Assembly (NCBI GenBank): GCA_030835125.1
Contig: JAUQWM010000014.1
Span: 1 to 64,000, forward strand
Length of the DNA: 64,000 nucleotides
Direction: 5' to 3'
Source of the DNA: Gemmatimonadaceae bacterium
GTDB lineage: Bacteria > Gemmatimonadota > Gemmatimonadetes > Gemmatimonadales > Gemmatimonadaceae
This document shows positions 5,884 through 23,001 of this stretch, piece after piece; position 1 is the first letter of the stretch, and the number at the start of each line of letters is the position of its first letter. The notes beneath the pieces are model-generated. The model searched no databases and was not told the origin of the DNA. It saw nothing but the letters and a program-made list of their open reading frames with translations. The position numbers were made by a program, and so were the translations under genes.

Positions 5884-7239
5884 ATGGCGCGCGTTCGCAA
5901 CGCGTCGATCCTGGCGTCGTTCCTGCTGGTGGGGACGGCGACCGCATCGCCCGCACAGCCCCCGTTCAAGCCCGCCAAGGCGGGCGTCGACGCGTCCAAG
6001 CCGGACGTCCTTCCGATCCTCAAGCTCACCCAGGTGAGCTTTGACGCCGCGCTGGCCGCACTCACGCGCCAGGACAACCGGGCGGCACGCGATCACCTCA
6101 GGAAGGCACGCGAACAGGCGGAGAAGGCCCTCAAGACCAACCCCGCCAGCCGCGATGCCGCGGTCGGACTCGGCATGATCTTCTTCTACGAAGGGGTCGC
6201 CGGCGACCGGAGGGGATACGAGCGCGCCAGCGACTGGCTCCAGAAGGTCGTCAACGCAGACCCTGATGCCGGGCAGGGGTACCAGTACCTGGCGCACGCC
6301 TACGGCCGCCAGAACAGGATGCACGAGACGATCGTCAATGCGTCACTGGCGCTGACGCTCCTGACCGACACGGCGTCCATTCGCGACCTCACCCAGCTCA
6401 AGAACGGCTTCCAGGACGTCTTCCTCAAGAACTGGTACGAGTACGGCCAGTACTACGAGAGCCCGGCCGCGAAGCTCACCCGCATCAACGCGCAGAACAA
6501 CTACGCCATCGAGCTGGTGGCGCAGATCACGCCGCAGTTCGAGCAGGACCTCGCGGCGAAGGGGCTGCAGGCGCTCGGCCCCACGCTGCAGATCTCGCAG
6601 GACGCACCGACGAAGCAGTACCTGCAGAAGCTCGTGGACAAGCTGCTGGCCAAGTCGCCGGGCGGCCCGCCGTTCACGTATACCGTCGACGTCGTCGAGT
6701 CGCCGGCGGTGAACGCGATGGCGTTTCCGGGGCGCATCCTCGTCAACACGGGGCTGATCCGATTCTGCGAGTCCGAGGCGGAGCTGATCACCGTGCTGTC
6801 GCACGAGATCGCCCACGTGTATGCCCACCACAGCGCGCGGGCGCTCCAGTCCAACTGGCAGAAGCAGCAGGTGGCGGCGACGATCCTCCAGGCGGCGAAC
6901 ATCAACAACTCGAACCTGAAGGAGCAGCTCATCACGCTGGGGGCCAGCGTCGGGCTCGAGCTGCTGGCGCGCGGCTACAGCCGCAACGAGGAGAAGGAGG
7001 CCGACAAGTACGGCACGCACCTCGCCTTCAACGCCGGCTACAACCCGACCCTGATGACGAAGTTCTTCCTCCGGCTGTACGAGGCGAACCCGCGCCAGCC
7101 GTTCAAGTGGCTCTCCACGCACCCGCCGACGACGGAGCGGATCGAGTACACCACGGCGTACCTCGAGGCGTTCCCGCTCGAGCAGGAGATGCAGCTGGAC
7201 AGCCAGGAGTTCAAGGACCTGAAGGCCCGCCTGAAATAG
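5884..7239 (+). CDS. M48-family metallopeptidase with N-terminal TPR-like region
   Basis: This is a secreted zinc peptidase of 451 residues. A signal peptide (SILASFLLVGTATASPAQ) is followed by helical TPR-like repeats at about 45-160. The M48 domain has HEIAH at 307-311, with E308 catalytic and H307/H311 as ligands. The third ligand is E370 in EKEAD. The tail contains FKWLSTHPPTTERI, the conserved HP motif typical of the BepA/LoiP group. It probably acts on periplasmic or outer-membrane proteins. Only 14 bases separate it from the giant vWA gene downstream, so the two are likely co-expressed, and the giant protein could be its partner or substrate (inference). Confidence 0.92.
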   Translation: MARVRNASILASFLLVGTATASPAQPPFKPAKAGVDASKPDVLPILKLTQVSFDAALAALTRQDNRAARDHLRKAREQAEKALKTNPASRDAAVGLGMIFFYEGVAGDRRGYERASDWLQKVVNADPDAGQGYQYLAHAYGRQNRMHETIVNASLALTLLTDTASIRDLTQLKNGFQDVFLKNWYEYGQYYESPAAKLTRINAQNNYAIELVAQITPQFEQDLAAKGLQALGPTLQISQDAPTKQYLQKLVDKLLAKSPGGPPFTYTVDVVESPAVNAMAFPGRILVNTGLIRFCESEAELITVLSHEIAHVYAHHSARALQSNWQKQQVAATILQAANINNSNLKEQLITLGASVGLELLARGYSRNEEKEADKYGTHLAFNAGYNPTLMTKFFLRLYEANPRQPFKWLSTHPPTTERIEYTTAYLEAFPLEQEMQLDSQEFKDLKARLK

Positions 7240-7253
7240 GGAGGTCGCCCCCC

Positions 7254-10200
7254 ATGCGTTCTCGTTCGTTAGGCGCCGTCGCCAGGCGGTTCGTCGACGT
7301 GCGCGCGGCCGCCGCGCTGCTCCTGCTCGTCGCCGGGCGCGCGACCGCGCAGCAGTACGAATACCCGGTCGTTCCGCCGGTCCTCTACGTGGTGGGGAAA
7401 CCGGAGTTCGGCACTCCCGCCGACGGCTCGCGCCGGGTCACGCTGTACAAGGACATCGGCCAGGCAACGGCGGCGGCGGGCGGGCAGCCGGTCTACCGGA
7501 TCCTCCGGCACGCGCTCGACCGCACCAGTGAAGGCACGGCGTTTCTCAAGTCGGTCCAGGCCGCGCGCAACGAGGACGGCCCGTTCCAAATCACCCTGAC
7601 GAGCGAACAATCCCTCGTCGAGACGCTGCACCGGAACAGCAAGGTTCCCGGCGACCTGGGTCCGGCCAACCCCAACTGGAAGCTCACCGGGAGATATCAG
7701 GGTCTCCTCAAGGACATGAACGCGGAATACAAGCCGGAGGGAGGCAAGGACGACTACAAGAACGGCCGCTTCTACTTCCCGACGGAGGGTTCCGAGGCCG
7801 CGGTGAACTTCATGCAGAACTTCAAGGTGCATGTCGGGAAGGACGCCGCCGGCAACACCATCCTCATGCGTCGCAATGATGCCGGCACGCTCATGCCGAT
7901 CGATACCCGGGACATCTCGAGCGACGTCCCGGCCGGCCAGTGCATCTTCGTCATGGACGCCGACGGCAACATGTACGTACTCGCCCGGGAGTGGGTCATC
8001 GGCATCAAGGCCATGGGCTTTGACGGGGTCAACCACTCCTCGATCCCCGCCGGCCACCCGATCGCCGCCGCGGGCAAGTTGGCGATCCACGATGGCAAGG
8101 TCGTGGCGATGGACAACTCTTCGGGACACTACCACCCGTCCAACGCCCATCTCAAGCAGGCCGTCAGCCAGCTGCAGACACTGGGGATCGAGAAGGGCTC
8201 GTACGACGTCGGGTTCCTCGCCGACGATCATCCGGGCCACGCCTACCTCGAACTCGACTCCAGGAAGGAGCAGCGGAAGTTCGTCGACGCGCCGCTCGAC
8301 GATGCACGCACCGGCGGCCCGCTGCACGGGGACCCCAACGCCAGGCGCCCCGACGCACCGGCCGACGCCGCGAGCGCCCTCAAGCCCGAGGAGACGATCC
8401 CCGACAAGCAACTCGACGTGGACCGTCGCGCCGCCGAACCCCCGCCCGCGTCAGGCACGATGGAGGCCGACAAGCCGGTCGAGCCGCCGCCCAGGGCGCT
8501 GGTCGAGGACATCCGGAAGCAGCTCGCCGCCCTGAAGCCAGAACAGATCGACGCCGCGGTCGTGAAGAGGCTCTACGCCCTCGACCCGAAGGCCGCCAAG
8601 GCGATCGCCGAGGCGGTCTCGAAGGGAGGCCTTGACGCGCACAACATGAAGATCGGCCAGGTGCGCAAGCAGCTGGACCTCGAGGTCTGGAAGAAGATCT
8701 TGTCCGAACACAACATCCAGGTCGAGACGACCAACCAGGGGAAGAACAACGGCGCTCGCAGCGACCTCGATTACACGCTGTACTTCGTCGCCGAGGAAGC
8801 CGGCGTCACGATCAAGGATCTGATCGCGGAGCACACCGCCACGTGGAAGGCGTTGCACCAGCTCGATCCGGCACAGGTCGAGATCAAGGTGATGAACGGC
8901 GACGAGTTCTACCCGGACTGGCGCAATGAAGCCCTCGGCTCGGTCGAGCACGAACTCCTGGTCAAGGATGTCCTCGGCCAGTTGCGTGGCGACGCGGAGA
9001 AGTACTCGGTCCCCGGCGGCAACAAGGAGCAGGTGCACAACCGCCCGCTGAGCGAAGGCCGGACCGAGAAGCTCCGCTACGATCCCGAACTCGACAAGCC
9101 GGACGTGCCCATCGAACGGCAGGTCATCAGCGACGCGGGCCCCACGCGCGAGATCTCACGGCGGTACCAGGGCGTCCACGCCCAGTACAACACGATGAAC
9201 GCGCTCGGGAACCTCATCCAGAACAAGGCCGAGTTCTTCAGCCACACCGGCGACCAGGCACAGGACGCCACGCGCCGCGCCAAGTACTTCAACCGCGTCA
9301 TCAACCTGGGCCTCGGAAACCTGCGTTTCTTCCCGAACACGTACGGGCAGATCCACGCCGGTCAGGCGGCGAAGAAGGAGCAGATGAAGGAGGACTTCCT
9401 CATGCGCGCCTTTGGCACCCTGGCCAGGGACGAGGGAAGGCCTGCCATCAACAGTTCGCAGCTCCGGCACTACAAGGAAGTCATCGACATCTCCATGCGG
9501 ATCGAGGCGGAGAAGACCGCCAACGCGAACTACATGGACCAGCGCGAGTCGTATTTTCGCGACAAGTACGCGCGCAACGCCGAGGCGTTTGTCGACCTGC
9601 GGCTCGGCAATTCGCCGGTCACGCCCGAGGAACGGAAGGCACTGGTCCTGGACGAGATGCAGCGCCTCTTCGAGCACGACCAGAAGCTCCTGCTGGCGGA
9701 AGCGATCCTGGCCGGCATGCGCCAGAGCGTCGCGCGCGACCTCACCCCCGAAGGCGTGCTGCGCAACCGGCTCCGCTTCGACGAGAAGACGCAGAAGTTC
9801 ATCGCCGACCCGGAAGGCGCGAAGAAGGTTGCGTTCGAGCGCGCCACCGAAGTCGCCCTGTTCTTCGAGCTGGTGAACTTGCTCCCCGACGGGACGCCGT
9901 TCGAAAAGGCGTTCAAGGAGAGCCTCAAGGCGCGCGCGATGGCCACAGCGCCCAACAAGGACATCGAGACCTTCTACGAAGCGCTCGACAAGGTCAACGC
10001 CGCCGAGATCGACAAGTTCATCAAGGGTGATCCGGAGAGCCACGTCCAGAAGTCGATGGACGAGTTGCGAGCCAAGCGTGACCGGGCGGTCCTCGAGTTG
10101 CTCGCCGATCGCAAGGAGAAGGCGGTCGAGTTCGCGCGGCAGAAGGGCGTCCGCGCCGATCCGTCCACGGTGGCACCGGCCGACGTGCATGCCCACATCC

Positions 10201-13200
10201 TCGAGGCCCAGTCGGAGCGCCTGGCACCATCCCGGCGCACCCAGATCCGGGCCGTGGCCGGAGCGCTCGGGACACGCATCGGCGGCGAGTTCAGGGAGGC
10301 ATTCACGCAGAACGGCTCCGCCCTGATGATGGGGTCCTCGGCGGTGAACCTGGCCCGGGCGTGGCAGTCGGGCGCACCCGGCGCCCTCGGCTACGCGGCG
10401 TTCACCGAGGCCATCAATTACATGCCGGATGCCATCCAGACACCGTTCACCGTGGTGGATCTCCTCGCCAAGGTGAAGCGTGGCGAGTACGTCGGCGCCG
10501 CCTGGTCGGGATCGCTGTTTGCGGCCATGTCGCAGGCGCCGGTGCTGGGACACGCGATGCTTGCCTACAACATCACGACCGGCACGCTGGACATCGCCCA
10601 CACGCACTTCGTCACCCGGATCGACCAGGACCTGACCGAGCAGGCGCTGAAGTCGCGCCCGCGCAACGAGCAGGGCGGCGGCCTCCCCGACGGAGTCCGC
10701 GCCCGTCCCAACCGGTTCCCGGATGCGAAGGAATCCGTCTACAACGGCAGCGGCCCTGGTTTCCCGCTCTTCTTCGGCCGTTACGTCAAGGAGCACGGGC
10801 CGAACACCAGCCCTGAATACCTCGACGGCACGGTCCCCCACGACGCGCTGTCCGACGACCAACTCGCCGACTCGGCGTCGTTCGAGTTCGCGCCGCAGAT
10901 CGACAGCATCCTGCGCGCCGCCAACCTCACCCCGGGCACGCAAGCCTGGGCGGGTCGCGCCTGGGACCTGAAGCGGAAGTATGGCTTCGACATCCCCTTC
11001 TACCGGCGCATGACGAAGGTGTACCAGGAGAAGTACAGGTTCCTCACCTACTTCGAGAACTGGCCGAGCCCGTACAACAAGGAATACCTCGAAGAGTGCC
11101 GCATGGACGTGTACGACTGGTTCGTGCAGCAGCCGCCCGGTTACAAGCTCGAGCTGGCCGGGGACGCGACGTTCTGGTTCGGCGACCAGACCGACAAGAT
11201 GCAGGAAATGATCGCCAGGCAGTGCGCGTTGATCCTGGGCAGCATCCACGAGATCACCGAGCACGCCGACGAGGTGGACAAGTCCAACCTCAAGGCCTTC
11301 AAGGAAGCGATGAAGCGCGGCTTCGACGCCGAGCGTTCCCTGCTCGCGGCAAAGCGCGCCCTCCATGCGCGCATCCAGGCGGATGAGCAGAAAGCGGCCG
11401 CCGAGGTGGAGAAGCGGGCCCTCGAGCTGGCCACCCGGCACAAGACCCAGCTCGTGATCAGCTACCCATTCACGTACGCGACCGAGGAGGATCTCTCGCT
11501 CCTCGACGTCGACGTGCGCACCCTCGCGGTCACGGTCAAACAACCGACGAGCGTTGACCTGAAACAGGAGCTGGGAACGGCCACGGAAGGTGCCCCCGCG
11601 GGATGGGAGCCGGGGCCGTCGTGGGCTGACGCGTTCAAGCCTGACAAGGACGGGTTCGTCGCGCGGCGACCCCTCACCGTACCGATGAAGATCACCGGCA
11701 ACCTGCTCGATGCCGACAAGAAGCAGGTTGCCACCGCGTCACTCACCCTGCCGGTCGTGGTGTATGCCCCGACGTTTTCGGGGACGGTCACGGTGAAGGT
11801 CTACGGCATGACGGCCAGGGGTGACAGCACCGAGTATCCCGGCGCCCTCGTCACGCTGGGCAGCGAGACGCAGGCAACGGATGCGTTGAATGGCGTCGCC
11901 ACCTTCGTGCGCCTGAAGCCCGGCCCGCACTCGGTGAAGGTTGCGCCGAGCAAGGGCGACGAACGCCACGGCCCGGGATCCGGTTCCGCGTCACTGGTCG
12001 ACCTACTGCTGACGAAGGACCCGAATGGAACGGAGAGCGCGCGGATCGTCGTGAAGCTTCCGTACATCCCGGAGAAGGTGGTTGCGGATTCAACAGCGAA
12101 TCCGGGCACGAAGAACCCGACCGGCGGGACTGGAACCGGTGCGAAGAACCCCGCCGATTCAGCCGCGAAGAAGGCGGCCGCCGACTCCGCCGCGGAAGCC
12201 GCGGTCGAGGCGGCCGTGGCGAAGCTCGGGCCCCTGACCGCCAGGGCCGAGGCCACGCGCGACCAGGCCATCGCCGCATGCCGGTACGGTGACGCCGCCG
12301 CCGCACAGGAGCAGCTCGTCGCGGCCGCAAGGAGTTTCATCGCGTCGGCTTTCCCGAAGGGCGCACCGGCCGGCATTGCGAGCATGGCACAGGAATACGA
12401 CACGAAGCTCGTCGAGCTGAAGAAGTTCGCCCTGGGCGAGACCGAGGCCAGGGTCCACCTGCGCCGCGGGCTCGCGTTCATCCAGCAGAAGAAGGGAGAA
12501 CCCGCCCTCACCGCCCTCGAGGAGGCGGAGAAGGTCGACAATGTCCCGAAGTGCCTCCATGACCAGATCGTCCAGACGTACAACGAGCTGAAGGCCGACA
12601 TCGAGAAGCGCATCCTGATCATCGACAAGGCGGTGGATGCGGCCAACAACAAGTGTGACTACCCGGCGGCGCGTGCGTTCGGGGAGCAGGTCGAGAAAGA
12701 GGATGCGTCACTCTCGTGGGTCGTGAACGAACTGCCGCGCATCAAGGACCTGGAGAAGAAGCAACAGGACGCGCGCGCCCTCGCCCAGCAGGCCGAGCAG
12801 AAGGCGGCCCTCGCCGAGCAGGCGGCGGGGGCGGGCAACGCCGCGCAGGCCGAGGCGCTGTTCAATGAAGCGATCGCCCTCGCCAACCAGGCGCTCCAGC
12901 TCGCGCCGGCTTGTGACAAGCAGAACTACTCCGACGGGGTCACGGCGCTGGTGGCGCGGAAGACGGCGCTCACCAACCCCACCGTGGACCAGTCGGTCGT
13001 CCTCCTGCTCGACACCAGCGGCAGCATGGGAAGCGGCGGGAAGATGGAGAGCGCCAAGCAGGCGGCCACCGACGCGGTGCGCGCGCTGGGCCCGACGGTG
13101 GAGGTGGCGCTCCTGACGTACGACGGCGGGTGTGCCGGCGGCTATCGGGTGGTGGCCGGGTTCACCACGCAGAAGGCGGGAATCGTCACCGCCATCGCGG

Positions 13201-14039
13201 GACTGAGCCCGGGCGGCGGCACGCCGACCGCGCCTGCGATCGGGTTCGCCCACGACTACATGAAGAAGAGCGCGAGGGGCAAGTCGGCCCAGATCGTCCT
13301 CATGACGGACGGACAGAATGACTGCGGGTCGATGGTCGACGCGGGATCCGGCCTGCGCAACAGCAACATCCCGGTCCGGCTCGACGCGGTCGGCTTCGGT
13401 CTCGACCCGAGCAGCCAGGCGACGAAAGACCTCGGTGACATCGTCCGTGCGTCTGGGGGCGGGGGCGGGGCCTATTCGGCGAACAGTTCGGCCGAACTGA
13501 TCTCCGCGTTCCGGCGGGCGTTCATCACGACCCAGGTGAAGCCGCGGGACCCGATGGTGTCGGGTGCCGCGGGCACGCGACTCGCAGACCTGTTCGCGGC
13601 GGCGATCGCGGCGCTGAAGGCCAACGACATGCGTGGCGCGGTCGGGCAGTTCAAGTCGGCGGTCGACCAGTTCCCGGCCTCACCCGCCGCGCAGTTCAAC
13701 GCATCGCTGGCGTACGAGGCGGCCGGGCAGCCCCTGGCGGCGCTGAACCACGCGCAGCAGTACCTGAAGCTCGCGCCTAACGCCTTCGATGCGGGTTCGG
13801 TGCGCGAACGGGTCACGCAACTGGAGGCCGAGCAGGCGGCCAACCCCCGCGCGATCTACACGCCGAACGACTGCAGCGCGCTCTACCGCTGGGCGCAGCG
13901 GGAGGTGCGTGCCGCGGGCGGCGAGGCTGCCCGGCGCGCCGCCGTCTACGCGATCATGACCACGGCGCAACGGGGCGAGTGCCCCGCGGCCGAGAAGGCC
14001 TACGAGGACTACGTGACGAAGTACGTGAAGAAGCCATAG
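7254..14039 (+). CDS. giant secreted vWA-domain protein (2,261 aa)
   Basis: The start is the ATG at 7254, preceded by GGGAGGT at about 7 bases; longer upstream readings run into the M48 gene. A signal peptide is followed by a long mostly helical body of unknown family. Residues 500-511 read GARSDLDYTLYF, reminiscent of the G-S-DxD core of nucleotidyltransferase folds (weak). Residues about 1505-1575 look like a carboxypeptidase-regulatory beta-sandwich. A Pro/Gly/Ala/Lys linker lies at about 1610-1650, followed by coiled coil. A von Willebrand A domain starts near 1912, with MIDAS DTSGS at 1920-1924 and TDG at 2018-2020. TPR-like helices close the protein at about 2098-2190. It is probably periplasmic or cell-surface. 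A metal-dependent adhesion or assembly role is only inference. Confidence 0.85.
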   Translation: MRSRSLGAVARRFVDVRAAAALLLLVAGRATAQQYEYPVVPPVLYVVGKPEFGTPADGSRRVTLYKDIGQATAAAGGQPVYRILRHALDRTSEGTAFLKSVQAARNEDGPFQITLTSEQSLVETLHRNSKVPGDLGPANPNWKLTGRYQGLLKDMNAEYKPEGGKDDYKNGRFYFPTEGSEAAVNFMQNFKVHVGKDAAGNTILMRRNDAGTLMPIDTRDISSDVPAGQCIFVMDADGNMYVLAREWVIGIKAMGFDGVNHSSIPAGHPIAAAGKLAIHDGKVVAMDNSSGHYHPSNAHLKQAVSQLQTLGIEKGSYDVGFLADDHPGHAYLELDSRKEQRKFVDAPLDDARTGGPLHGDPNARRPDAPADAASALKPEETIPDKQLDVDRRAAEPPPASGTMEADKPVEPPPRALVEDIRKQLAALKPEQIDAAVVKRLYALDPKAAKAIAEAVSKGGLDAHNMKIGQVRKQLDLEVWKKILSEHNIQVETTNQGKNNGARSDLDYTLYFVAEEAGVTIKDLIAEHTATWKALHQLDPAQVEIKVMNGDEFYPDWRNEALGSVEHELLVKDVLGQLRGDAEKYSVPGGNKEQVHNRPLSEGRTEKLRYDPELDKPDVPIERQVISDAGPTREISRRYQGVHAQYNTMNALGNLIQNKAEFFSHTGDQAQDATRRAKYFNRVINLGLGNLRFFPNTYGQIHAGQAAKKEQMKEDFLMRAFGTLARDEGRPAINSSQLRHYKEVIDISMRIEAEKTANANYMDQRESYFRDKYARNAEAFVDLRLGNSPVTPEERKALVLDEMQRLFEHDQKLLLAEAILAGMRQSVARDLTPEGVLRNRLRFDEKTQKFIADPEGAKKVAFERATEVALFFELVNLLPDGTPFEKAFKESLKARAMATAPNKDIETFYEALDKVNAAEIDKFIKGDPESHVQKSMDELRAKRDRAVLELLADRKEKAVEFARQKGVRADPSTVAPADVHAHILEAQSERLAPSRRTQIRAVAGALGTRIGGEFREAFTQNGSALMMGSSAVNLARAWQSGAPGALGYAAFTEAINYMPDAIQTPFTVVDLLAKVKRGEYVGAAWSGSLFAAMSQAPVLGHAMLAYNITTGTLDIAHTHFVTRIDQDLTEQALKSRPRNEQGGGLPDGVRARPNRFPDAKESVYNGSGPGFPLFFGRYVKEHGPNTSPEYLDGTVPHDALSDDQLADSASFEFAPQIDSILRAANLTPGTQAWAGRAWDLKRKYGFDIPFYRRMTKVYQEKYRFLTYFENWPSPYNKEYLEECRMDVYDWFVQQPPGYKLELAGDATFWFGDQTDKMQEMIARQCALILGSIHEITEHADEVDKSNLKAFKEAMKRGFDAERSLLAAKRALHARIQADEQKAAAEVEKRALELATRHKTQLVISYPFTYATEEDLSLLDVDVRTLAVTVKQPTSVDLKQELGTATEGAPAGWEPGPSWADAFKPDKDGFVARRPLTVPMKITGNLLDADKKQVATASLTLPVVVYAPTFSGTVTVKVYGMTARGDSTEYPGALVTLGSETQATDALNGVATFVRLKPGPHSVKVAPSKGDERHGPGSGSASLVDLLLTKDPNGTESARIVVKLPYIPEKVVADSTANPGTKNPTGGTGTGAKNPADSAAKKAAADSAAEAAVEAAVAKLGPLTARAEATRDQAIAACRYGDAAAAQEQLVAAARSFIASAFPKGAPAGIASMAQEYDTKLVELKKFALGETEARVHLRRGLAFIQQKKGEPALTALEEAEKVDNVPKCLHDQIVQTYNELKADIEKRILIIDKAVDAANNKCDYPAARAFGEQVEKEDASLSWVVNELPRIKDLEKKQQDARALAQQAEQKAALAEQAAGAGNAAQAEALFNEAIALANQALQLAPACDKQNYSDGVTALVARKTALTNPTVDQSVVLLLDTSGSMGSGGKMESAKQAATDAVRALGPTVEVALLTYDGGCAGGYRVVAGFTTQKAGIVTAIAGLSPGGGTPTAPAIGFAHDYMKKSARGKSAQIVLMTDGQNDCGSMVDAGSGLRNSNIPVRLDAVGFGLDPSSQATKDLGDIVRASGGGGGAYSANSSAELISAFRRAFITTQVKPRDPMVSGAAGTRLADLFAAAIAALKANDMRGAVGQFKSAVDQFPASPAAQFNASLAYEAAGQPLAALNHAQQYLKLAPNAFDAGSVRERVTQLEAEQAANPRAIYTPNDCSALYRWAQREVRAAGGEAARRAAVYAIMTTAQRGECPAAEKAYEDYVTKYVKKP

Positions 14040-14128: not shown

Positions 14129-15523
14129 ATGCAGGTCGCATCGCGCCCCGGTGGGCGGCCGCCGCGGATTGCCCTCATCTCCCCGAAGGGTCCGCTCTAT
14201 CGGCATCGGGGGGGCATCTGGAAGAAGTCCCTCCGGTACCAGCCGCTGACGCTCACCACCCTGGCGGCGCTGATTCCGGAGGACGTTCCGCACACGGTCG
14301 CCCTGTACGACGAGGGTATCTGCGACGTCCCCCTCGACCTGGACGTTTCGCTGGTGGGCATTACGGTCATCACCGGCACCGCCGTGCGCGCGTATGAGCT
14401 CGCCGATCATTTCCGGTCGCGCGGGATCGCCGTCGTCCTTGGCGGTCCGCATGTCACGCTCATCCCGGAGGACGCCCAACCGCACGCCGATGCCGTCGTG
14501 GTCGGCTACGCCGAGGACACCTGGCCGCAACTCATCCGTGATTTCACGGCCGGCGCGCTGCAGCCGCGGTACACGCAGGCGCCGGGTCTCAGCCTGGCCG
14601 GCCGTCCGTTCGCCAGGCGCGACTTGCTGCCCAGCCGGCACTTCCTGACCAACAACGTGTTCGAGGCAACGCGCGGCTGCGTCCACGCCTGTGAATTCTG
14701 CGTGGTGCCCACCGCCTGGGGCCGGCGCCCGTTCCAGAAGCCGGTGCAGGAGGTCGTGGCCGACATCCGCCAGCACGGGGCGCGCAAGCTCATCTTCGTC
14801 GACCTCAACCTGATCGCCGATCGCGCCTATGCCCTCGAGCTCTTCACCGCGCTGATCCCGCTGCGGCTGCAATGGTACGGACTGTCCACGGTCCTGCTGG
14901 CGGACGACGAGGAACTGCTCGCGCTCGCCCAGCGCAGCGGATGCAGGGGACTCCTCATGGGCCTGGAGTCCCTGTCCACCGTGAACCTCAAGGGAAACCG
15001 GAAGGGATTCAACTCGCCCGATCACTACGCGACGGTGGTCGACCGGCTGCACGCCCACGGCATTGCCCTGCAGGGCTGCTTCGTCTTCGGGCTCGACGAC
15101 GATCGCCCCGACGTCTTCCTCCGGACTGCCGAGTTCGCGGTGCAGGCCGGGATCGACCTGCCACGCTTCGCGGTCGTGACGCCGTTCCCGAACACGCCGC
15201 TGTACAAGCGGCTCGACGCGGAAGGGCGCATCCTGACGAAGAACTGGGAGCTGTACGACGCTCAGCACGTGGTCTTCCAGCCTCGCCACATGAGCGTGCA
15301 GGAGCTTCAGGAAGGGATCGAGGCGGCGTGGCAGCACGCGTACAGCTACCGGTCCATCTGGCGGCGCATCCGCGCCTCGCCGGCGCCCTGGCCCGTGCGG
15401 CTCGGGACCAACATCGGCTACCGGTTCTACACGAACAACCTCTCGCGGTTCTACAACTGCGACTGGATCATCGGGCGCACCGTGAATGCCCCGGCGCCGG
15501 CCCTCACGCGCGCCGCCTCCTGA
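14129..15523 (+). CDS. B12-binding-type radical SAM enzyme, first copy
   Basis: The 464-residue protein starts at an ATG preceded by GGGAGGT. The N-terminal 150 residues have the Rossmann pattern of cobalamin-binding domains (LVGITVITGTAVRAYELA, VVLGGPHVTLIPEDA). The radical SAM cluster ligands are C184, C188 and C191 in GCVHACEFC. Later signatures are LMGLESLS, CFVFGLDDD and VTPFPNTPLYKRL, as in HpnR/BchE-like enzymes. It should catalyse a SAM-radical step (methylation, cyclisation or C-C bond change) on an unknown substrate. It is the first gene of a five-gene operon, and its stop lies 5 bases before the second radical SAM gene. Confidence 0.93.
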   Translation: MQVASRPGGRPPRIALISPKGPLYRHRGGIWKKSLRYQPLTLTTLAALIPEDVPHTVALYDEGICDVPLDLDVSLVGITVITGTAVRAYELADHFRSRGIAVVLGGPHVTLIPEDAQPHADAVVVGYAEDTWPQLIRDFTAGALQPRYTQAPGLSLAGRPFARRDLLPSRHFLTNNVFEATRGCVHACEFCVVPTAWGRRPFQKPVQEVVADIRQHGARKLIFVDLNLIADRAYALELFTALIPLRLQWYGLSTVLLADDEELLALAQRSGCRGLLMGLESLSTVNLKGNRKGFNSPDHYATVVDRLHAHGIALQGCFVFGLDDDRPDVFLRTAEFAVQAGIDLPRFAVVTPFPNTPLYKRLDAEGRILTKNWELYDAQHVVFQPRHMSVQELQEGIEAAWQHAYSYRSIWRRIRASPAPWPVRLGTNIGYRFYTNNLSRFYNCDWIIGRTVNAPAPALTRAAS

Positions 15524-15528
15524 CGCGC

Positions 15529-16884
15529 ATGCGCCTGACGATCATTCATCCCTGCGTTGGGCGGAAGCCGGGGCAGCAGTACATCCGCACCTGGCAGATG
15601 GAACCGCTGCCGGCGGCGACGCTCGCCGGCCTGACGCCGGCCGACGTCACCGTCCGGTTCCACGACGACCGGATGGAGATCATCCCGTTCGACGAGCCTA
15701 CGGACCTCGTGGCGATCAGCGTCGAGACCTACACCGCCAAGCGCGCCTACCAGATCGCCAGCGAGTATCGGCGCCGGAAGGTCCCGGTGGTGATGGGCGG
15801 CTTCCACGCCAGCCTCTGCCCCGACGAAGTCGCTCGCTACGCGGAAGCGGTGGTCACCGGCGAGGCCGAGCAACTCTGGGCCCGGGTGATCGACGATGCC
15901 CGCCACGGGACCCTCGAGAAGTTCTACCGGGCGCAGGGCCGTCCGTCACTCGCCGGCCTTAAGCCGGACCGGTCCATCTTCCGCGGCAAGCGGTACCTGC
16001 CCGTGGGCCTCGTCGAGGCCGGGCGCGGCTGCCACTTCAGTTGCGAGTTCTGCGCCGTGCAGACGGTGTTCGAGGCGACACAGACCCGCCGGCCCATCGA
16101 CGACATACTTGCCGAGCTGCGCGCGCTCAAGGACTCGAAGAAACTCTTCTTCTTCGTCGACGACAACATCACGTCGAACCTCCGGCAGGCGAAGGAGTTC
16201 TTCCGCGCCCTCATCCCCCTCGGGATCCGCTGGGTCAGCCAGTCGAGCATCAACGCCGCGCACGACGAGGAGTTCCTCGACCTGCTGGTGCGCAGTGGAT
16301 GTCAGGGGGTGCTGATCGGGTTCGAGAGCCTGAACCCGGACAACCTGCTGTCGATGAACAAGCGGTTCAACACGGCCAAGGGAGGGTTCGAGGCTGCGCT
16401 GGCCAACCTGCGGCGGCACCGGATCCGTATCTATGGGACGTTCATCTTCGGATACGACGGCGACACGGCCGACAGTTTCGGGCCCACCGTGGAGTTCGCC
16501 CAGCGCCACGGCTTCTATATCGCCGCATTCAACCACCTGACCCCGTTCCCCGCCACGCCGCTGTACCAGCGGCTGCAGGCCGAGAGCCGGCTGCTCTACG
16601 ATGCCTGGTGGCTCGACGATCGCTACAGCTACAACCGCATCCCCTTCCAGCCGCGCGGGATGTCGCCCGATGACCTGCAGCGCGCCTGCCTCACCGCGCG
16701 CCGGCGCTTCTATGGCTGGGGGAGCATCCTGCGGCGCAGCATGGACGTCGTGAACCGCAGCGATGCCTTCATGTGGCGCAATTTCTACCTTATCAACTCG
16801 CTGCACCGGCAGGACGTGAGCCTGCGCGATCACTATCCGCTGGGAGACGAGGCGTGGCAGGGACCGCTGCTCTCGGCGAACTGA
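15529..16884 (+). CDS. B12-binding-type radical SAM enzyme, second copy
   Basis: The 451-residue protein is related to its upstream neighbour but clearly diverged. The cobalamin-like N-terminus includes TDLVAISVETYTAKRAYQIA and VVMGGFHASLCPDE. Cluster ligands are C168, C172 and C175 in GCHFSCEFC. Further signatures are FFFVDDNITSN, LIGFESLNPDN, TFIFGYDGD and LTPFPATPLYQRL. The ATG lies 5 bases after the previous stop. Paired radical SAM enzymes acting successively on one scaffold are common in natural-product and membrane-lipid pathways; that role here is inference. The longer reading frame upstream of the ATG overlaps the first enzyme and is not used. Confidence 0.92.
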   Translation: MRLTIIHPCVGRKPGQQYIRTWQMEPLPAATLAGLTPADVTVRFHDDRMEIIPFDEPTDLVAISVETYTAKRAYQIASEYRRRKVPVVMGGFHASLCPDEVARYAEAVVTGEAEQLWARVIDDARHGTLEKFYRAQGRPSLAGLKPDRSIFRGKRYLPVGLVEAGRGCHFSCEFCAVQTVFEATQTRRPIDDILAELRALKDSKKLFFFVDDNITSNLRQAKEFFRALIPLGIRWVSQSSINAAHDEEFLDLLVRSGCQGVLIGFESLNPDNLLSMNKRFNTAKGGFEAALANLRRHRIRIYGTFIFGYDGDTADSFGPTVEFAQRHGFYIAAFNHLTPFPATPLYQRLQAESRLLYDAWWLDDRYSYNRIPFQPRGMSPDDLQRACLTARRRFYGWGSILRRSMDVVNRSDAFMWRNFYLINSLHRQDVSLRDHYPLGDEAWQGPLLSAN

Positions 16885-17978
16885 GCGAAGCACCCCCGAC
16901 AGGACTGTCACTCGCCCAGTCGGCGGACGATGCCGCGCTGCGCGCGCTGCTGCGACGTTCGGTGCTGCCGGGTCCTGTGCGGGTCGCCCTGACGCGTGAG
17001 CCATGCTACGCGGCGGGCGAGGGCCTTGCCGGAGCCGAGGATACCACGCTGGTCTCGCGTCGCGATGGGCGGATCGCCGGCATCGGGCGGTGCAGCGTGA
17101 ACACGCAGGTGCTCGACGGGCGGGCGTCGCGGGTCGGCTATCTCGCCGAACTGCGCGTGATCCCCGGTTCGCCGGGTGCGCCACGCATGCTCCGCGAGGG
17201 CTACGAGTACCTCGAGACGCACGTCGCCCCGACGCTCGATGCGTGCTTCACGAGCATCGGGGCGGGCAACGAACGCGCTCGGCGCGTGCTGGAACGCGGC
17301 GCGCGCTTCGGGCTTCCTGCCTATCGACGACTGGGTGACCTGGTCACGCTCGTGGCCCCCATCCCGCCGATGCGGATCGCTTCCACCGAACGCGAGGTGA
17401 TCGTCGACGAGGATGCGCTCCTTGCGTTCCTTCGCGTCCAGTCGGCGCGTTCCCGGCTTGGGCTTGCATGGACGGATGTCCAGTGGAACGCGCTTTCGGC
17501 GCACGGGATCGACCACAGCAGCTTCGTCGTCGTCATGCGCGATCGGCGCGTGGCCGGCGCCGCCGCCATCTGGGACCAGCGGGCCTTCCGGCAGGTCGTC
17601 GTGGATGGTTACGACGGCGCTCTCCGGTACACCCGTCCGCTGGTGAACGTCGCTCTCGCGCTGCGCGGCGAGCCGCGCCTGCCGCCTCCGGGATCCGTCC
17701 TCGCCCAGGGGATGCTGCTTGGCGCTTCGGTGGTCGACCCCTCGGACTGGCCGGCGCTCTGGGCGGCAATCGCGCACCGGGCTGCGGGCACGGGGTTGCG
17801 GTGGCTCGTCGTTTCCCGAGCGGCCGGCGATCCCGAACTCGATATCCTGCGCCGGACGCTGCACGCCCGCGAGTATCGCACGACGCTCTATGACGTGCGG
17901 TGGCGCATGATGAACCAGCGCGGACTCCTTCCGCCTGGCGAGGCGCGGCCATTGCGTCCCGAGGTCAGCCTCCTGTGA
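16854..17978 (+). CDS. GNAT-like protein of radical SAM/GH3 operon
   Basis: The 374-residue protein is read from a GTG inside the 3' end of the radical SAM gene; GGGAG lies about 8 bases before it, but the start is not certain. The first half has an acetyltransferase-like pattern (TTLVSRRDGRIAGIG, YLAELRVIPGSPGAPRMLREG, SIGAGNERARRVLERG). The second half repeats a similar plan (VVVMRDRRVAGAAAIWDQ). It may be a double GNAT fold without a classical QxxGxG/A loop. It could transfer an acyl group or act as a substrate-binding partner. The stop overlaps the next start as GTGA. Confidence 0.7.
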   Translation: MAGTAALGELSEAPPTGLSLAQSADDAALRALLRRSVLPGPVRVALTREPCYAAGEGLAGAEDTTLVSRRDGRIAGIGRCSVNTQVLDGRASRVGYLAELRVIPGSPGAPRMLREGYEYLETHVAPTLDACFTSIGAGNERARRVLERGARFGLPAYRRLGDLVTLVAPIPPMRIASTEREVIVDEDALLAFLRVQSARSRLGLAWTDVQWNALSAHGIDHSSFVVVMRDRRVAGAAAIWDQRAFRQVVVDGYDGALRYTRPLVNVALALRGEPRLPPPGSVLAQGMLLGASVVDPSDWPALWAAIAHRAAGTGLRWLVVSRAAGDPELDILRRTLHAREYRTTLYDVRWRMMNQRGLLPPGEARPLRPEVSLL

Positions 17979-18721
17979 CGGCACTGTTCCCGGCCTCGGG
18001 CGAATCCATCGTGCTCGGCGATGGCGCCGTGGCCACGCCGCGCGCCGCCCTCAGCATTGCCGCGCGCCACGAGATGCGACGCCTGATGGTGGCGCACTTC
18101 GACGGCGTCACCGAGACCCAGTTCGACCGGGACCTCGCCTCGAAGGACTGGGTCCTCAGGTTCTCGCGCGATGGCGTCCTGGTGGGTTTCTCCACGATGC
18201 AGGTCTACGGTGCCACGCACGATGGTCGCGCCGTGAACGTGATCTACTCCGGCGACACGGTCATGGCGCCCGAGGCGTGGGGTTCGCCGATTCTCGCCCG
18301 CGCCTGGATTGCGCTGGTGCGCAGGCTCCAGGAGGCGCGACCCGGGGCGCCCTGGTACTGGCTGCTCCTCTCGTCAGGCTTCCGCACGTACCGCTTCCTG
18401 CCGGTGTTCTGGAGGGAGTTCTGGCCCCGGCATGACGCCGCGACGCCCTCGGACATCCGTTCACTGCGCGATGACCTCGCGCGCAGCCGTTTCGGTGCGT
18501 CGTTCGACGCGGACCGCGGGGTCGTCCGGTTCGCGTATCCGCAACGACTGCGCGCCCACCTGGCCGCCATCCCGGACGGAAAGGAGGCCGATCCACACGT
18601 GCGCTTCTTCCTCGAGCGGAACCCCGGTCATGCCGCCGGCGACGAGCTGGTCTGCCTCACCGAGCTGAGTGACGCCAACCTCACCGCGGCCGGCGCCCGC
18701 ATGGTCCGCGCGCCCCGGTGA
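17975..18721 (+). CDS. unknown protein of radical SAM/GH3 operon
   Basis: The 248-residue cytoplasmic protein starts at a GTG overlapping the previous stop (GTGA), and its own stop overlaps the next GTG in the same way, so translation is coupled on both sides. I do not recognise the family. Visible features are an N-terminal helix (MRRLMVAHFDGVTETQFDRDL), a beta-rich middle (GVLVGFSTMQVYGA, NVIYSGDTVM) and a C-terminal FFLERNPGHAAGDELVCLTEL. The sheet-helix order is compatible with a diverged GNAT fold. The strict coupling implies a job in the same pathway as the GH3 enzyme. Confidence 0.7.
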   Translation: MTALFPASGESIVLGDGAVATPRAALSIAARHEMRRLMVAHFDGVTETQFDRDLASKDWVLRFSRDGVLVGFSTMQVYGATHDGRAVNVIYSGDTVMAPEAWGSPILARAWIALVRRLQEARPGAPWYWLLLSSGFRTYRFLPVFWREFWPRHDAATPSDIRSLRDDLARSRFGASFDADRGVVRFAYPQRLRAHLAAIPDGKEADPHVRFFLERNPGHAAGDELVCLTELSDANLTAAGARMVRAPR

Positions 18722-20304
18722 ACCCGGCGGCGGTGGCGAACACACTCTGGCTCGCCAGCGGCATCGGCGCGTCACGCCGTTTTTCGCTGGCACTGGCCGG
18801 CATCCGTGAGGCACAGGAGCGGTGGCTGCGGCACCAGCTCGTCAGGCATGCGCGGAGCGAGTTCGGGCGCGCCCACGATTTCGCCGCGATCGAGTCCGCC
18901 GACAACTTCGCCCAGCGAGTCCCGCTCACCGATTACGCGACGCTGCAACCGTCGATCCGTCGCATCGCCGACGGCGAACCCGACGTCCTCGCCTGCGGCC
19001 GCGTGACCCACCTGGTGCCGACGAGCGGATCGACGGGCGCGCAGAAGCTTGTGCCCTTCAGCGCCTCCCTGCAGGCAGCATTCAGCGCCGCCGTGCGACC
19101 CTGGCTCGGCGACCTCGCCCGGCAGAGGCCGTCGCTCCTAGGCGGACCGGCCTACTGGTCAATCTCACCCATGACCGAAGCGACCGGCGCCGCCGGGAGC
19201 ACCGACGGCATTCCGGTCGGGTTCGCGGACGACGCGGAGTACGTCGGGGGCACGACCGCCTGGCTCCTGCGTCGCGCCCTGGCCGTTCCGGCCGAGGTGC
19301 GGCACGTACGGGACGCCACGACCTTCTGGCGCCTGACGACGCTGGCGATGCTCCGCGCGCGCGAACTGCGGCTCATTTCCGCCTGGCATCCGTCATTCGT
19401 TGACGTGCTCGTGTCGGCCGCGGCCGCGGCGTGGCCCGAGCTTCTCGACGCCATCGCCACGGGATCGTGTCCGTGGGAGGACGCCCTGCCGCCAGCGAAG
19501 GCCGCGCGCTGGCGCGTCCCCCCGGATCGCGCGCGCGCCGCGGAACTCCGCGCGATCGGCCCTGCCGATTGGCCGCGCTGGTGGCCGCGACTCACGGTCG
19601 TGAGCTGCTGGGGCGAGCAGGCCGCCGAGGCGGGTTGGCAGCGCCTTCGCGCGAGGCTGCCTGGGGTCCTCGTCCAGGCCAAGGGATTGCTGGCCACCGA
19701 GGCGGTCGTGACCATCCCCTACGGCGGGATGACGCCGCTCGCCGTCACGTCCCATTTCTTCGAGTTCATCGACCAGCGCGGAGAGGTCCGCCTGGCGCAC
19801 GAACTGGAGCGCGGCGGAGCGTACGAGGTCGTCGTCACCAATGGGGGCGGCTTCTGGCGCTACCGCCTCGGCGATATGGTCGAATGCGTCGGCTTCCTGC
19901 GCGAGGCGCCGTGCCTGCGATTCCTCGGGCGCGCGGGCCGGGTCAGCGACCTCCGTGGTGAGAAGCTCAGCGAGGTGTTCGCCGCCGAGGTGTTGCGCAC
20001 CGCCTGGGGCGGCGTTGCCGCGCCCGCGTATGCCGCGTTCCGGGCGAACGACGACGGCGATCGGGCCGGGTACGACCTCCTCGTGTCCATCGAGTCCCTC
20101 ACGGCACCGCCGGACGACATCGCCGCGCGCATAGACCACGCACTGTCGGCCAATCCACACTATGCCCTGGCGCGTCGACTGGGACAGCTCGCGCCGCTCC
20201 GCGTGATCCCGGTCAGTCCCGACAGCGCCCGGGAGGAACTCGTGGCGACGAGGTTGCGGATCGGGGAAACGAAGCCATCGGTGCTGTTCCTGAACGGCGA
20301 TTGA
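18718..20304 (+). CDS. GH3-family acyl-adenylating enzyme
   Basis: The 528-residue protein belongs to the GH3 branch of adenylate-forming enzymes, best known from plants where it conjugates hormone acids to amino acids. The phosphate-binding loop is TSGSTG at 102-107. Other blocks are AYWSISPMTEATG, LLATEAVVTIPYGGM, YEVVVTNGGGFWRYRLGDMVE and FLGRAGRVSDLRGEKLSE, matching the A3, A5 and A8-like motifs of the family. It should activate a carboxylic acid with ATP and pass it to an amine or thiol. The GTG start overlaps the previous stop. It ends the operon and is followed by a hairpin. Confidence 0.9.
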   Translation: MNPAAVANTLWLASGIGASRRFSLALAGIREAQERWLRHQLVRHARSEFGRAHDFAAIESADNFAQRVPLTDYATLQPSIRRIADGEPDVLACGRVTHLVPTSGSTGAQKLVPFSASLQAAFSAAVRPWLGDLARQRPSLLGGPAYWSISPMTEATGAAGSTDGIPVGFADDAEYVGGTTAWLLRRALAVPAEVRHVRDATTFWRLTTLAMLRARELRLISAWHPSFVDVLVSAAAAAWPELLDAIATGSCPWEDALPPAKAARWRVPPDRARAAELRAIGPADWPRWWPRLTVVSCWGEQAAEAGWQRLRARLPGVLVQAKGLLATEAVVTIPYGGMTPLAVTSHFFEFIDQRGEVRLAHELERGGAYEVVVTNGGGFWRYRLGDMVECVGFLREAPCLRFLGRAGRVSDLRGEKLSEVFAAEVLRTAWGGVAAPAYAAFRANDDGDRAGYDLLVSIESLTAPPDDIAARIDHALSANPHYALARRLGQLAPLRVIPVSPDSAREELVATRLRIGETKPSVLFLNGD

Positions 20305-20327: not shown

Positions 20328-20385
20328 GTTGTGCGGGAGGGCGCCGCGTGCCACGATACCGCGCCACCCTGACCGGAGCCGCTTC

Positions 20386-21288
20386 GTGACTGCCTTTCGC
20401 ACCATCATGGCGTGCCTGTGCCTCATCGGCCTCGTCACCCTGCCGGTATCGGCCCAGCGGCCACTCAAGGTCTACATCTCCGTCGACATGGAGGGCATCG
20501 GCGGCGTGGTCACGAACGAGCAGCTGGGGCCTACGGGGTTCGAGTATGCCCGGGCGCGCCAGTTCATGACCGACGAGGCGCTGGCGGCCATCCAGGGCGC
20601 GCGCGACGCCGGTGCTACCGAGATCCTCGTCAGCGACTCGCACGGCAACGGCCAGAACCTTCTCATCGACCAGTTGCCGGCGGACGTGCGGGTGATCCGC
20701 TCGTGGCCGCGACCCTTGATGATGATGGAAGGCATCGACTCGTCGTTCAGCGCCGCGGTGTTCATCGGGTACCACGCGTCAACGGCCAACGTGCGTGGCG
20801 TCCGGGCACACACGATGTCGAGTGCGACCCTGACCGGCGTGAAGCTCAATGGCGTGGAAGTCCCCGAGGGCGGGCTGAATGCCGCGATCGCGGGACACTT
20901 CGGCGTGCCGGTGGTCGCCATCAGCGGTGACGACGCCGCGGTGGCCGAGGTCCGGCAGTTCACCGGGCCGATTCCGGGCGCCGAGGTGAAGCGCGCGATC
21001 TCGTTCCACTCGGCGTCGACCCTCACACCGAAGGCCTCGCAGGAACTGGTCCGCACCCGGGTCAGGGCCGGCGTCGAGCAACGGGCGTCCGCGAAGCCGT
21101 ACATGGTGCACGGACCCATCACGCTGGAGATGTCGTTCAAGAACTACCGCGCCGCCGAGCTGCTGGCGTACCTGCCGATCGTCACGCGCATGAATGCGCA
21201 CACGATCCGGTTCGTCGGCAGAGACATCGTCGAGGTCTCGAGGTTCATCGAATTCGTCAACTCGTACCAGCCGGACATCACGCCGTGA
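20386..21288 (+). CDS. M55-family D-aminopeptidase (DppA-like), exported
   Basis: The 300-residue protein is read from a GTG with GGAG 8 bases upstream; an ATG 7 codons later is the alternative. A signal peptide (CLCLIGLVTLPVSAQ) precedes the M55 domain. The family metal motif is VDMEG, with D34 and E36. H86 in SDSHG and H130 in GYHA complete the visible ligands. The segment GDDAAVAEV and the lysine-rich FHSASTLTPKASQ are also typical. DppA cleaves short peptides with N-terminal D-residues, so this enzyme probably recycles peptidoglycan-derived D-peptides in the periplasm. It is a single gene. Confidence 0.9.
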   Translation: MTAFRTIMACLCLIGLVTLPVSAQRPLKVYISVDMEGIGGVVTNEQLGPTGFEYARARQFMTDEALAAIQGARDAGATEILVSDSHGNGQNLLIDQLPADVRVIRSWPRPLMMMEGIDSSFSAAVFIGYHASTANVRGVRAHTMSSATLTGVKLNGVEVPEGGLNAAIAGHFGVPVVAISGDDAAVAEVRQFTGPIPGAEVKRAISFHSASTLTPKASQELVRTRVRAGVEQRASAKPYMVHGPITLEMSFKNYRAAELLAYLPIVTRMNAHTIRFVGRDIVEVSRFIEFVNSYQPDITP

Positions 21289-21318
21289 GGCGCACCCTTT
21301 TTCCGGCGCGACCGCGCC

Positions 21319-23001
21319 ATGGGTGACCCCATGAGCGACGTCGCCGTGAAGCTCCCGCCGGGCTTGCAGGGCCGCTACCGCGTCGAGCGCGAAGTGGGGC
21401 GCGGAGGCATGGGCGCCGTCTTCCTGGCCGTCGACCTGCGGCTGGATCGCCCGGTGGCGCTGAAGGTGCTGCCGCCGGAATTCGCGACCGACGTGGCGCT
21501 GCGCGAGCGATTCCTCCGGGAGACGCGAACCGCCGCGTCTTTCTCGCACCCGAACATCGTCCCGGTGCACTCGGTGGAGGAGGATGCCGGTTCCCTCGCC
21601 TTCGTCATGGGGTTTGTCGAGGGGGAGAGCCTGGCTGCCCGCGTCGCACGCACCGGCCCGCTCGACGTGCGGAGCGTGGTACGCCTGCTCCAAGACGTGG
21701 CCTACGCGCTGGCGTACGCGCACGGTCGCGGCGTGGTCCATCGCGACATCAAGCCGGACAACATCATGATCGAGCGGGCGACCGGCCGCGCGCTCGTCAT
21801 GGATTTCGGGATCTCGCGCTCGATCGTCCAGCCGGCCGAGGCGCAGGGCCTGACCCGGATCGGGGAGATCGTGGGGACCCCGGAGTACATGAGCCCCGAG
21901 CAGGCGTCCGCGGACCACGTCGACGGCCGCAGCGACCTGTATGCGCTGGGCCTGGTGGCACTGTTCGCCCTGACGGGCCGCGCGCCGATCGGTGGCGGAT
22001 CCACCCAGCAGCTCATCGTCAGGCAGCTCACCGAGGTGCTGCCGCCCGCGGCCTCGCTCCGCCCCGACCTGCCGCCCGCGCTCGCGGACGCCATCGACCG
22101 CTGTGTCGCCAAGGCACCCGACGAGCGGTTCGCCACCGCCGAAGCCCTGGTCGAGGCCATCGACAGCGCTCAACTGGCCGCCCCCGAGATCCCACTGCCC
22201 ATCCGGCTCTTCGCCCAGGAGGCGGCGACGTTAGGCATGGTGCTGTCCTTCTTCGCCGTCATCAGCTGGGTGATCGTGGCCACGCTCTCGCGCCTGACGG
22301 GCGGCATCGATGCCTGGCTGCCGGTGATGCTGCTCATGGGCGTGGTGCTCACGCGGGTGCTGCAGGCGCGGTCGGAAGCCGGCCGGCTGGCGGCGGCGGG
22401 ATTCACGGTCGACCATGTCATGGCGGGGATGCGCGCCGTGGTCGAGGAGCGGGCCACCGTCCGGGCCGCGGTCGGCACCAGCGCGGCCGTGCGAAAGCGC
22501 CGGAGGCGCACGGTGACGATCGCGCTCCTGCAGCTGCCCGTGGCTGCCCTGTTCGCAAAGCTCGCGCTGGACAGTCGGGAGCAGGTCGGGCCCTCGAGCT
22601 ACCGGGTTGGATTCGGTGCCACGACGCTCGTCGTCACCGCGCTCATCCTCACCGGCGTGAGTTTCGTTCTCCTCATTCGCAGCCCGTTCCGGGCGCCGAT
22701 CGGCGAGCGCCTCTTCCGGCTGGTGTGGCTTGGTCCCTTCGGCCGGGCCTTCGTGCGTGGGGCGATGCGTCAGGCGGGTAAGGCGGCAGGAAGTCCGGAG
22801 TCCTCGGCCACTGCGGTGCGCGTGCCCGCGGCACCAATGGTCGCGCGGACGCCGGCCCCAACGCCAGGCACCGTGGCGGTCACGGTCACCGGGCACCTGG
22901 TGCCGGTTGCGCCTGGCGATGGGACCGATGTGCGTCTCGATCGGATCGAGGCGCGACTGGCCGCCATCGAGCGCGCGGTGACACGGCCGGGCCGGGGATG
23001 A
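21319..23001 (+). CDS. PknB-type Ser/Thr kinase with four-helix membrane tail
   Basis: The 560-residue kinase has its glycine loop GRGGMGAVF at 27-35, K49, HRDIKPDN from H141, and MDFGISRS and YMSPEQASA in the activation segment. Catalysis looks intact. The tail has four hydrophobic helices near 304-326, 330-346, 397-413 and 440-460, then an Ala/Pro/Val-rich stretch and a short coiled coil. This polytopic tail is common in Gemmatimonadota-type kinases; its signal is unknown. ATG 21331 is an alternative start. Its TTA-GGC codon pair at 22231 lies in one of the dispersed octamers. Confidence 0.92.
   Translation: MGDPMSDVAVKLPPGLQGRYRVEREVGRGGMGAVFLAVDLRLDRPVALKVLPPEFATDVALRERFLRETRTAASFSHPNIVPVHSVEEDAGSLAFVMGFVEGESLAARVARTGPLDVRSVVRLLQDVAYALAYAHGRGVVHRDIKPDNIMIERATGRALVMDFGISRSIVQPAEAQGLTRIGEIVGTPEYMSPEQASADHVDGRSDLYALGLVALFALTGRAPIGGGSTQQLIVRQLTEVLPPAASLRPDLPPALADAIDRCVAKAPDERFATAEALVEAIDSAQLAAPEIPLPIRLFAQEAATLGMVLSFFAVISWVIVATLSRLTGGIDAWLPVMLLMGVVLTRVLQARSEAGRLAAAGFTVDHVMAGMRAVVEERATVRAAVGTSAAVRKRRRRTVTIALLQLPVAALFAKLALDSREQVGPSSYRVGFGATTLVVTALILTGVSFVLLIRSPFRAPIGERLFRLVWLGPFGRAFVRGAMRQAGKAAGSPESSATAVRVPAAPMVARTPAPTPGTVAVTVTGHLVPVAPGDGTDVRLDRIEARLAAIERAVTRPGRG

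Follow-up and report, generated by a model that had tools for sequence, protein, structure and literature searches.

Five closely packed genes, here called A to E, occupy positions 14129-20304 of the window, the stretch of 64,000 nucleotides at positions 1 to 64,000 of contig JAUQWM010000014.1 from a Gemmatimonadaceae bacterium (assembly GCA_030835125.1). They encode two BchE-type radical S-adenosylmethionine (radical SAM) enzymes, two proteins with predicted GNAT folds and an enzyme of the GH3 family. In this work, the five genes are shown to be a conserved unit, recurring together in distant bacteria. The operon is real, conserved and unnamed in the sources searched: no paper describing the five-gene set was found in the open-licence PMC full text, and, as the original prediction from the sequence had supposed, no named pathway fitted the set when the literature and curated models were compared. 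We propose, at about even odds, that these genes are the smallest core of a pathway, so far uncharacterised and spread by horizontal transfer, that leads to an N-acylated (acyl-amide) lipid or a metabolite resembling one. The genes are as follows.

Gene A: 14129..15523, plus strand; 464 amino acids, BchE-type radical SAM enzyme with a B12-binding-like N-terminal domain and a CxxxCxxC motif
Gene B: 15529..16884, plus strand; 451 amino acids, second BchE-type radical SAM enzyme
Gene C: 16854..17978, plus strand, GTG start; 374 amino acids, predicted tandem-GNAT acyltransferase of the N-myristoyltransferase (NMT) type, C-terminal Leu
Gene D: 17975..18721, plus strand, GTG start; 248 amino acids, predicted single GNAT fold plus a C-terminal extension, without a Pfam family
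Gene E: 18718..20304, plus strand, GTG start; 528 amino acids, GH3-family acid-amido synthetase

The packed arrangement described in the original prediction is exactly what the sequence holds: a 5-base gap between A and B, a 31-base overlap of B and C, and GTGA overlaps of 4 bases each between C and D and between D and E. A scan for promoters and terminators gave no signal exceeding chance.

Conservation of the Five Genes across Bacteria

Genome contigs were searched with B as the query, which gave 100 confirmed stretches; 80 were retained (identity of B 59-84%), and A-E were then mapped onto them. The complete set is present in 60 of the 80 loci, strictly consecutive in 43 of them, and a permuted order, D-E-A-B-C, occurs at seven loci. 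Several of the loci without the complete set are truncated by contig ends. Recurrence on this scale in other genomes argues that the arrangement is not due to chance. Judged by record titles, from which the labels of these mostly metagenome-assembled genomes were taken, the A-E loci cover at least nine phyla; titles with the full set include Acidobacteria, Verrucomicrobia, Planctomycetes, Gemmatimonadetes, Chloroflexi, Trueperaceae (Deinococcota), alpha- and gammaproteobacteria, Marinimicrobia and Desulfobacula. Two carriers, Chthoniobacter flavus Ellin428 (locus L010) and Neoroseomonas oryzicola (L071), are isolates in which the operon can be tested.

The tight spacing is also widespread. Neighbouring genes lie between -80 and +60 bases apart in 57/76 loci for A-B, 57/63 for B-C, 46/56 for C-D and 52/56 for D-E. 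The 31-base overlap of B and C is seen in 20 of 63 loci and the 4-base overlap of D and E in 29 of 56, both counts being biased towards the window's arrangement by the choice of the start codons nearest to its starts. Across 45 common sets, pairwise protein distances of the five genes correlate with r values of 0.67-0.90, against a maximum of 0.27 after permutation; since the permutation takes no account of shared organismal descent, this correlation shows co-inheritance and not function by itself. Mean identity is 65-66% for A and B, 42% for D and E, and 33% for C. A and B are thus the most constrained proteins of the five, and an identity of about 65% across phyla implies that one core chemical structure is strongly constrained.

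Five Chloroflexi-type loci at first seemed to carry B alone; each of those genomes holds exactly one copy of D elsewhere, which indicates that parts of the operon were split and not lost. Gene order proved to be kept far beyond close relatives, although the original prediction had allowed that it might be confined to them, and together with the correlated distances this agrees with its suggestion that the products act together.

Radical SAM Enzymes A and B

Both A and B combine a putative B12-binding-like N-terminal domain with a CxxxCxxC radical SAM core, as do members of the BchE/HpnJ/AprD4 group. In Pfam, A exceeds the cut-offs of the B12-binding family PF02310 (41.4 bits vs. 32.1) and of Radical_SAM PF04055; B scores 63 bits with PF04055 and falls slightly under the PF02310 cut-off (31.7 vs. 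32.1). Of the PF02310 model, just the later half was matched. A and B are 35% identical and fall into separate clades, A forming its own monophyletic subfamily. Two further clades, Bp and Bq, are found mostly as an adjacent pair, and all four subfamilies occur together in 19 loci; such four-enzyme neighbourhoods include L030, L046, L054, L057, L064, L069, L071, L080 and L085.

All 64 sequences of A and all 81 of B contain the CxxxCxxC motif, which is carried by all four subfamilies, while DxHxxG was found in none of their 192 sequences. The latter motif is dispensable in known cobalamin radical SAM members. The closest solved chain to both A and B is AprD4 (6fd2), an enzyme that is not known to use cobalamin.

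When NCBIfam models were compared with A and B, no cut-off of a named family was reached, and the best scores were about 6-8 times under it. These belonged to BchE (79 vs. 481), HpnJ (75 vs. 578), PhpK (90 vs. 600) and a ladder-type model (61 vs. 360). For A and B, HpnJ gave 68.7 and 75.4 bits (cut-off 577.6), HpnR 38.5 and 32.6 bits (650) and the MiaB/RimO model TIGR00089 16.1 and 32.6 bits (251); the Bp and Bq members tested were likewise far under curated cut-offs. Unlike the known BchE/HpnJ/AprD4 enzymes, they make up four subfamilies of their own (A, B, Bp, Bq), whose tested members lie under every curated cut-off. Hopanoid and tRNA-methylation enzymes, named in the original prediction as matches that would speak against a new pathway, are not matched, and a tRNA methylthiolation reading was dropped because A and B lie far under the curated cut-offs.

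Gene C Encodes a Predicted NMT-Type Double GNAT

Pfam gives only a sub-threshold GNAT match for C. Its structure, predicted by AlphaFold with 63 orthologues (pLDDT 92.5), was ranked by Foldseek closest to glucosamine N-acetyltransferase, VipF and NMTs. After realignment, the best 50 entries were all NMTs (Z 21-22, about 300 residues, model residues 13/14-374); the top alignment has Z 22.1, a root-mean-square deviation of 3.5 and 297 aligned residues (model 14-374). In the predicted structure, the two GNAT domains stand in the NMT arrangement. C thus resembles eukaryotic NMT over its full length, including a conserved last residue aligned at the NMT C-terminal end, and differs from it in being bacterial, in belonging to a biosynthetic operon and in sharing only about 9% identity. 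The original prediction had spoken of two unknown proteins, one of them GNAT-like; structure prediction for the products of the genes at 16854 and 17975 upheld the GNAT assignment, refined it to an NMT-type double GNAT for C, and assigned a single GNAT fold to the second protein, D, as well.

The C-terminus of C is strictly positioned. Its position at the chain end is shared by all 63 orthologues (61 with Leu, one with Met, one with Tyr), two distant copies at L102 and L103 keep the tail (-FETALV and -FEMALV), and the range aligned with NMT reaches both the last model residue of C and the C-terminal end of NMT. We infer that C may use its C-terminus as NMT does; Eis reportedly uses its own in a similar way. 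In NMT, the catalytic base is the C-terminal carboxylate (PMC4964394; PMC12219266). A study of NAT16/HisAT described, by structure search, "NMT-type" double GNATs in bacteria and archaea, in which the chain terminates at the active site (PMC12219266). The C-terminus of C may likewise reach its active site, but those proteins were named from structures alone, whereas C belongs to a conserved operon and its C-terminal position is invariant.

Genes D and E

D is without any Pfam match, and a profile search of PDB sequences gave chance-level matches only. Its AlphaFold model (pLDDT 95) shows a GNAT fold with a C-terminal extension and matches 147 PDB chains at E<=0.001, with Z up to 12.4. The closest structures, NatD, AAC(2'), GCN5 and LasI, have similar Z values of 11-12, so the substrate of D is not readable from the fold. 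An SGDT motif is invariant in D.

E exceeds the Pfam cut-offs of three GH3 domains (PF03321, 137 bits; PF23571, 65 bits; PF23572, 24.5 bits). The GH3 ATP-site motifs SGS...K, TE, RY.lxD and GEK are conserved in 57 sequences, which makes the acid activation and amide formation expected in the original prediction plausible. The only characterised bacterial GH3 lipid enzyme that we found is OlsH, which makes an amide lipid and whose other homologues were suggested to use other amino acids (PMC12493201). The planctomycete ornithine-lipid pathway of OlsH and OlsI offers a parallel, in which an operon-borne bacterial GH3 joins a fatty acid to an amine and a second acyl-transfer step follows (PMC12493201). 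It differs in several respects: the operon partners of OlsH are OlsG and OlsI, OlsI is of the alpha/beta-hydrolase type, GNAT genes are not described and radical SAM enzymes are never mentioned (PMC12493201), and the OlsH model gives E 44.9 bits against an equivalog cut-off of 620.

Neighbouring Genes in Other Organisms

Several families recur beside the core in other genomes. The most frequent are a fatty-acid desaturase (33 loci), PAP2 (31), a Rieske oxygenase (20) and SnoaL-like proteins (20), followed by a 340-amino-acid protein without an assigned family (12), a membrane protein (11), an RND exporter resembling HpnN/HAE3 (7), an AurF-like protein (5) and a radical SAM-SPASM protein (3). 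Clusters of neighbouring reading frames such as families 1, 5, 6 and 8, apparently overlapping antisense or out-of-frame frames, were left out. The AurF-like diiron protein stands beside the core in different phyla (L010, L015, L034, L057 and L060), with a hexapeptide-repeat protein adjoining it in four of the five. The operon at L055 contains, between D and E, a gene (11277-12881) for a fusion of a PAP2 domain with a fatty-acid desaturase. In Neoroseomonas oryzicola, a second GH3-like gene follows E (L071:11204-14523).

Proposed Pathway and Alternative Explanations

In the proposed pathway, E would activate a carboxylic acid with ATP and join it to an amine. C would take a long acyl chain from acyl-CoA and attach it to an amine, with the C-terminal carboxylate of C acting as the base, as in NMT, and D may transfer a second acyl group. 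A and B would carry out oxygen-independent radical chemistry on the carbon skeleton, such as C-H functionalisation, dehydration, cyclisation or methylation. One of the records with the core bears the title Desulfobacula; the sulfate reducers of this genus are anaerobes, which is consistent with oxygen not being required. In other organisms, two additional radical SAM enzymes and/or a desaturase, Rieske oxygenase, AurF-like protein, PAP2 or RND exporter extend the core, and these may serve in tailoring or moving the product.

The desaturase, PAP2, Rieske oxygenase, RND exporter and two additional radical SAM enzymes near the core elsewhere suggest a lipid-like product. The lipid nature of the product, as judged from the fold of C, the GH3 precedent and these neighbours, is an evenly balanced proposition. 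Several observations weigh against it. C has no significant sequence match to NMT (PF01233/PF02799), NMT_C being matched in only one of 63 members at E 0.14, and PDB sequences gave no match to a profile of C. An NMT-like fold is also no proof of a long-chain substrate, as HisAT, Eis and mycothiol synthase are double GNATs too. In the window's genome (4.48 Mb, 99% complete), neither the desaturase nor the Rieske protein seen beside the core elsewhere has a close homologue, so that A-E are the minimal unit there and the argument for a lipid comes from other organisms. Moreover, fatty-acid or polyketide synthase genes were not seen among the recurrent neighbours.

The strongest alternative, which we consider possible although clearly less probable than a lipid, is a small polar natural product or signal, similar to a siderophore, toxin or auxin conjugate; C and D would then perform short-chain acylations (with acetyl or amino acid groups), E would conjugate an acid with an amino acid, and A and B would build the scaffold. 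The best fold matches of D are indeed acetyltransferases (NatD, AAC(2'), GCN5), plant GH3 enzymes conjugate small acids, a specialised metabolite suits the patchy distribution described below, and Rieske, SnoaL and AurF-like proteins are also found in small-molecule clusters. Such a product is harder to reconcile with partners of the lipid type (desaturase, PAP2 and RND/HpnN-like transporters), with the closeness of C to NMT, a binder of long acyl chains, and with radical SAM enzymes whose conservation across phyla is unusually high for a diversifying natural product.

It is improbable that the target is instead a protein, peptide or existing cell-envelope molecule, acylated by C at its N-terminus or a lysine and modified by the radical SAM enzymes. 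The resemblance of C to a protein N-myristoyltransferase and of D to protein N-terminal acetyltransferases such as NatD would fit this, and BchE-type radical SAM enzymes include peptide modifiers, ApyD giving 59 bits with B; but ApyD and other models for ribosomally synthesised and post-translationally modified peptides lie far under cut-off, E as a GH3 enzyme is a free-acid ligase, and the recurrent neighbour families, which covered reading frames of 90 amino acids and more, showed no conserved precursor peptide.

A variant of a known pathway, namely that of hopanoids (HpnJ/HpnR-like), the bacteriochlorophyll cyclase (BchE), ladderanes or OlsH ornithine lipids, is very improbable, since the models that A, B and E match best, OlsH among them, are all far under their curated cut-offs. 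On these scores, the BchE, ladderane, PhpK and OlsH readings were rejected. Hopanoid clusters (HpnJ, HpnR, HpnN) share with some of our loci a radical SAM enzyme of the cobalamin type (a putative one in our loci) plus an RND transporter, but squalene-hopene cyclase (TIGR01507, searched at E 0.001) was absent from the window's genome and from six of nine other operon genomes, two being over cut-off. Its absence from 7 of 10 disfavours the hopanoid pathway, which was rejected on this ground and on the HpnJ and HpnR cut-offs.

Patchy Distribution, Transfer and an Oxygen-Using Variant

Among 298 genomes from the window's phylum, 8 contain D, as do 13 of 289 from the phylum of Chthoniobacter. B is absent from the second genome of the window's genus, which is 72% complete. 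The B protein of the window is about 80% identical to verrucomicrobial copies and 61-62% to that of L078, a locus with a Gemmatimonadetes title. The sporadic occurrence of D and the closeness of B to verrucomicrobial copies fit horizontal transfer or extensive loss, and the pattern of D in the two sampled phyla is what a mobile, specialised pathway would be expected to show.

In two Gemmatimonadota genomes (G195 and G282, 92-93% complete), C, D and E are clustered with a Rieske gene, and no B orthologue is present in the genome. The clusters are as follows.

C-D-E-Rieske cluster: L102:8083-12880, minus strand
C-D-E-Rieske cluster: L103:5659-10437, minus strand

C-D-E can thus occur apart from A-B, and an oxygenase might take the place of the radical chemistry in an oxygen-using version of the pathway. 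Taken in its widest form, the proposal is a tentative one, held with somewhat less than even confidence: scattered members of many phyla would make an undescribed class of bacterial acyl-amide lipids with a transferable core (two BchE-type radical SAM enzymes, an NMT-type acyltransferase, a GNAT and a GH3 enzyme), and some Gemmatimonadota would possess an oxygen-using Rieske-C-D-E variant without A and B. A product that proved to be a new lipid would be a candidate as a biomarker and as a component of membranes. The operon would then also provide an experimental handle on bacterial NMT-type acyltransferases, for which the NAT16 paper relies on structure searches alone (PMC12219266).

Genes Flanking the Operon in the Window

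Downstream of the operon, positions 20329-23001 encode a D-aminopeptidase (M55) and a serine/threonine protein kinase, whose link to the operon is not evident. Immediately upstream, positions 7107-14039 encode a huge protein of 2310 codons, counted from the first possible start; most of it is without a Pfam match, the exception being a von Willebrand A domain near the C-terminus.

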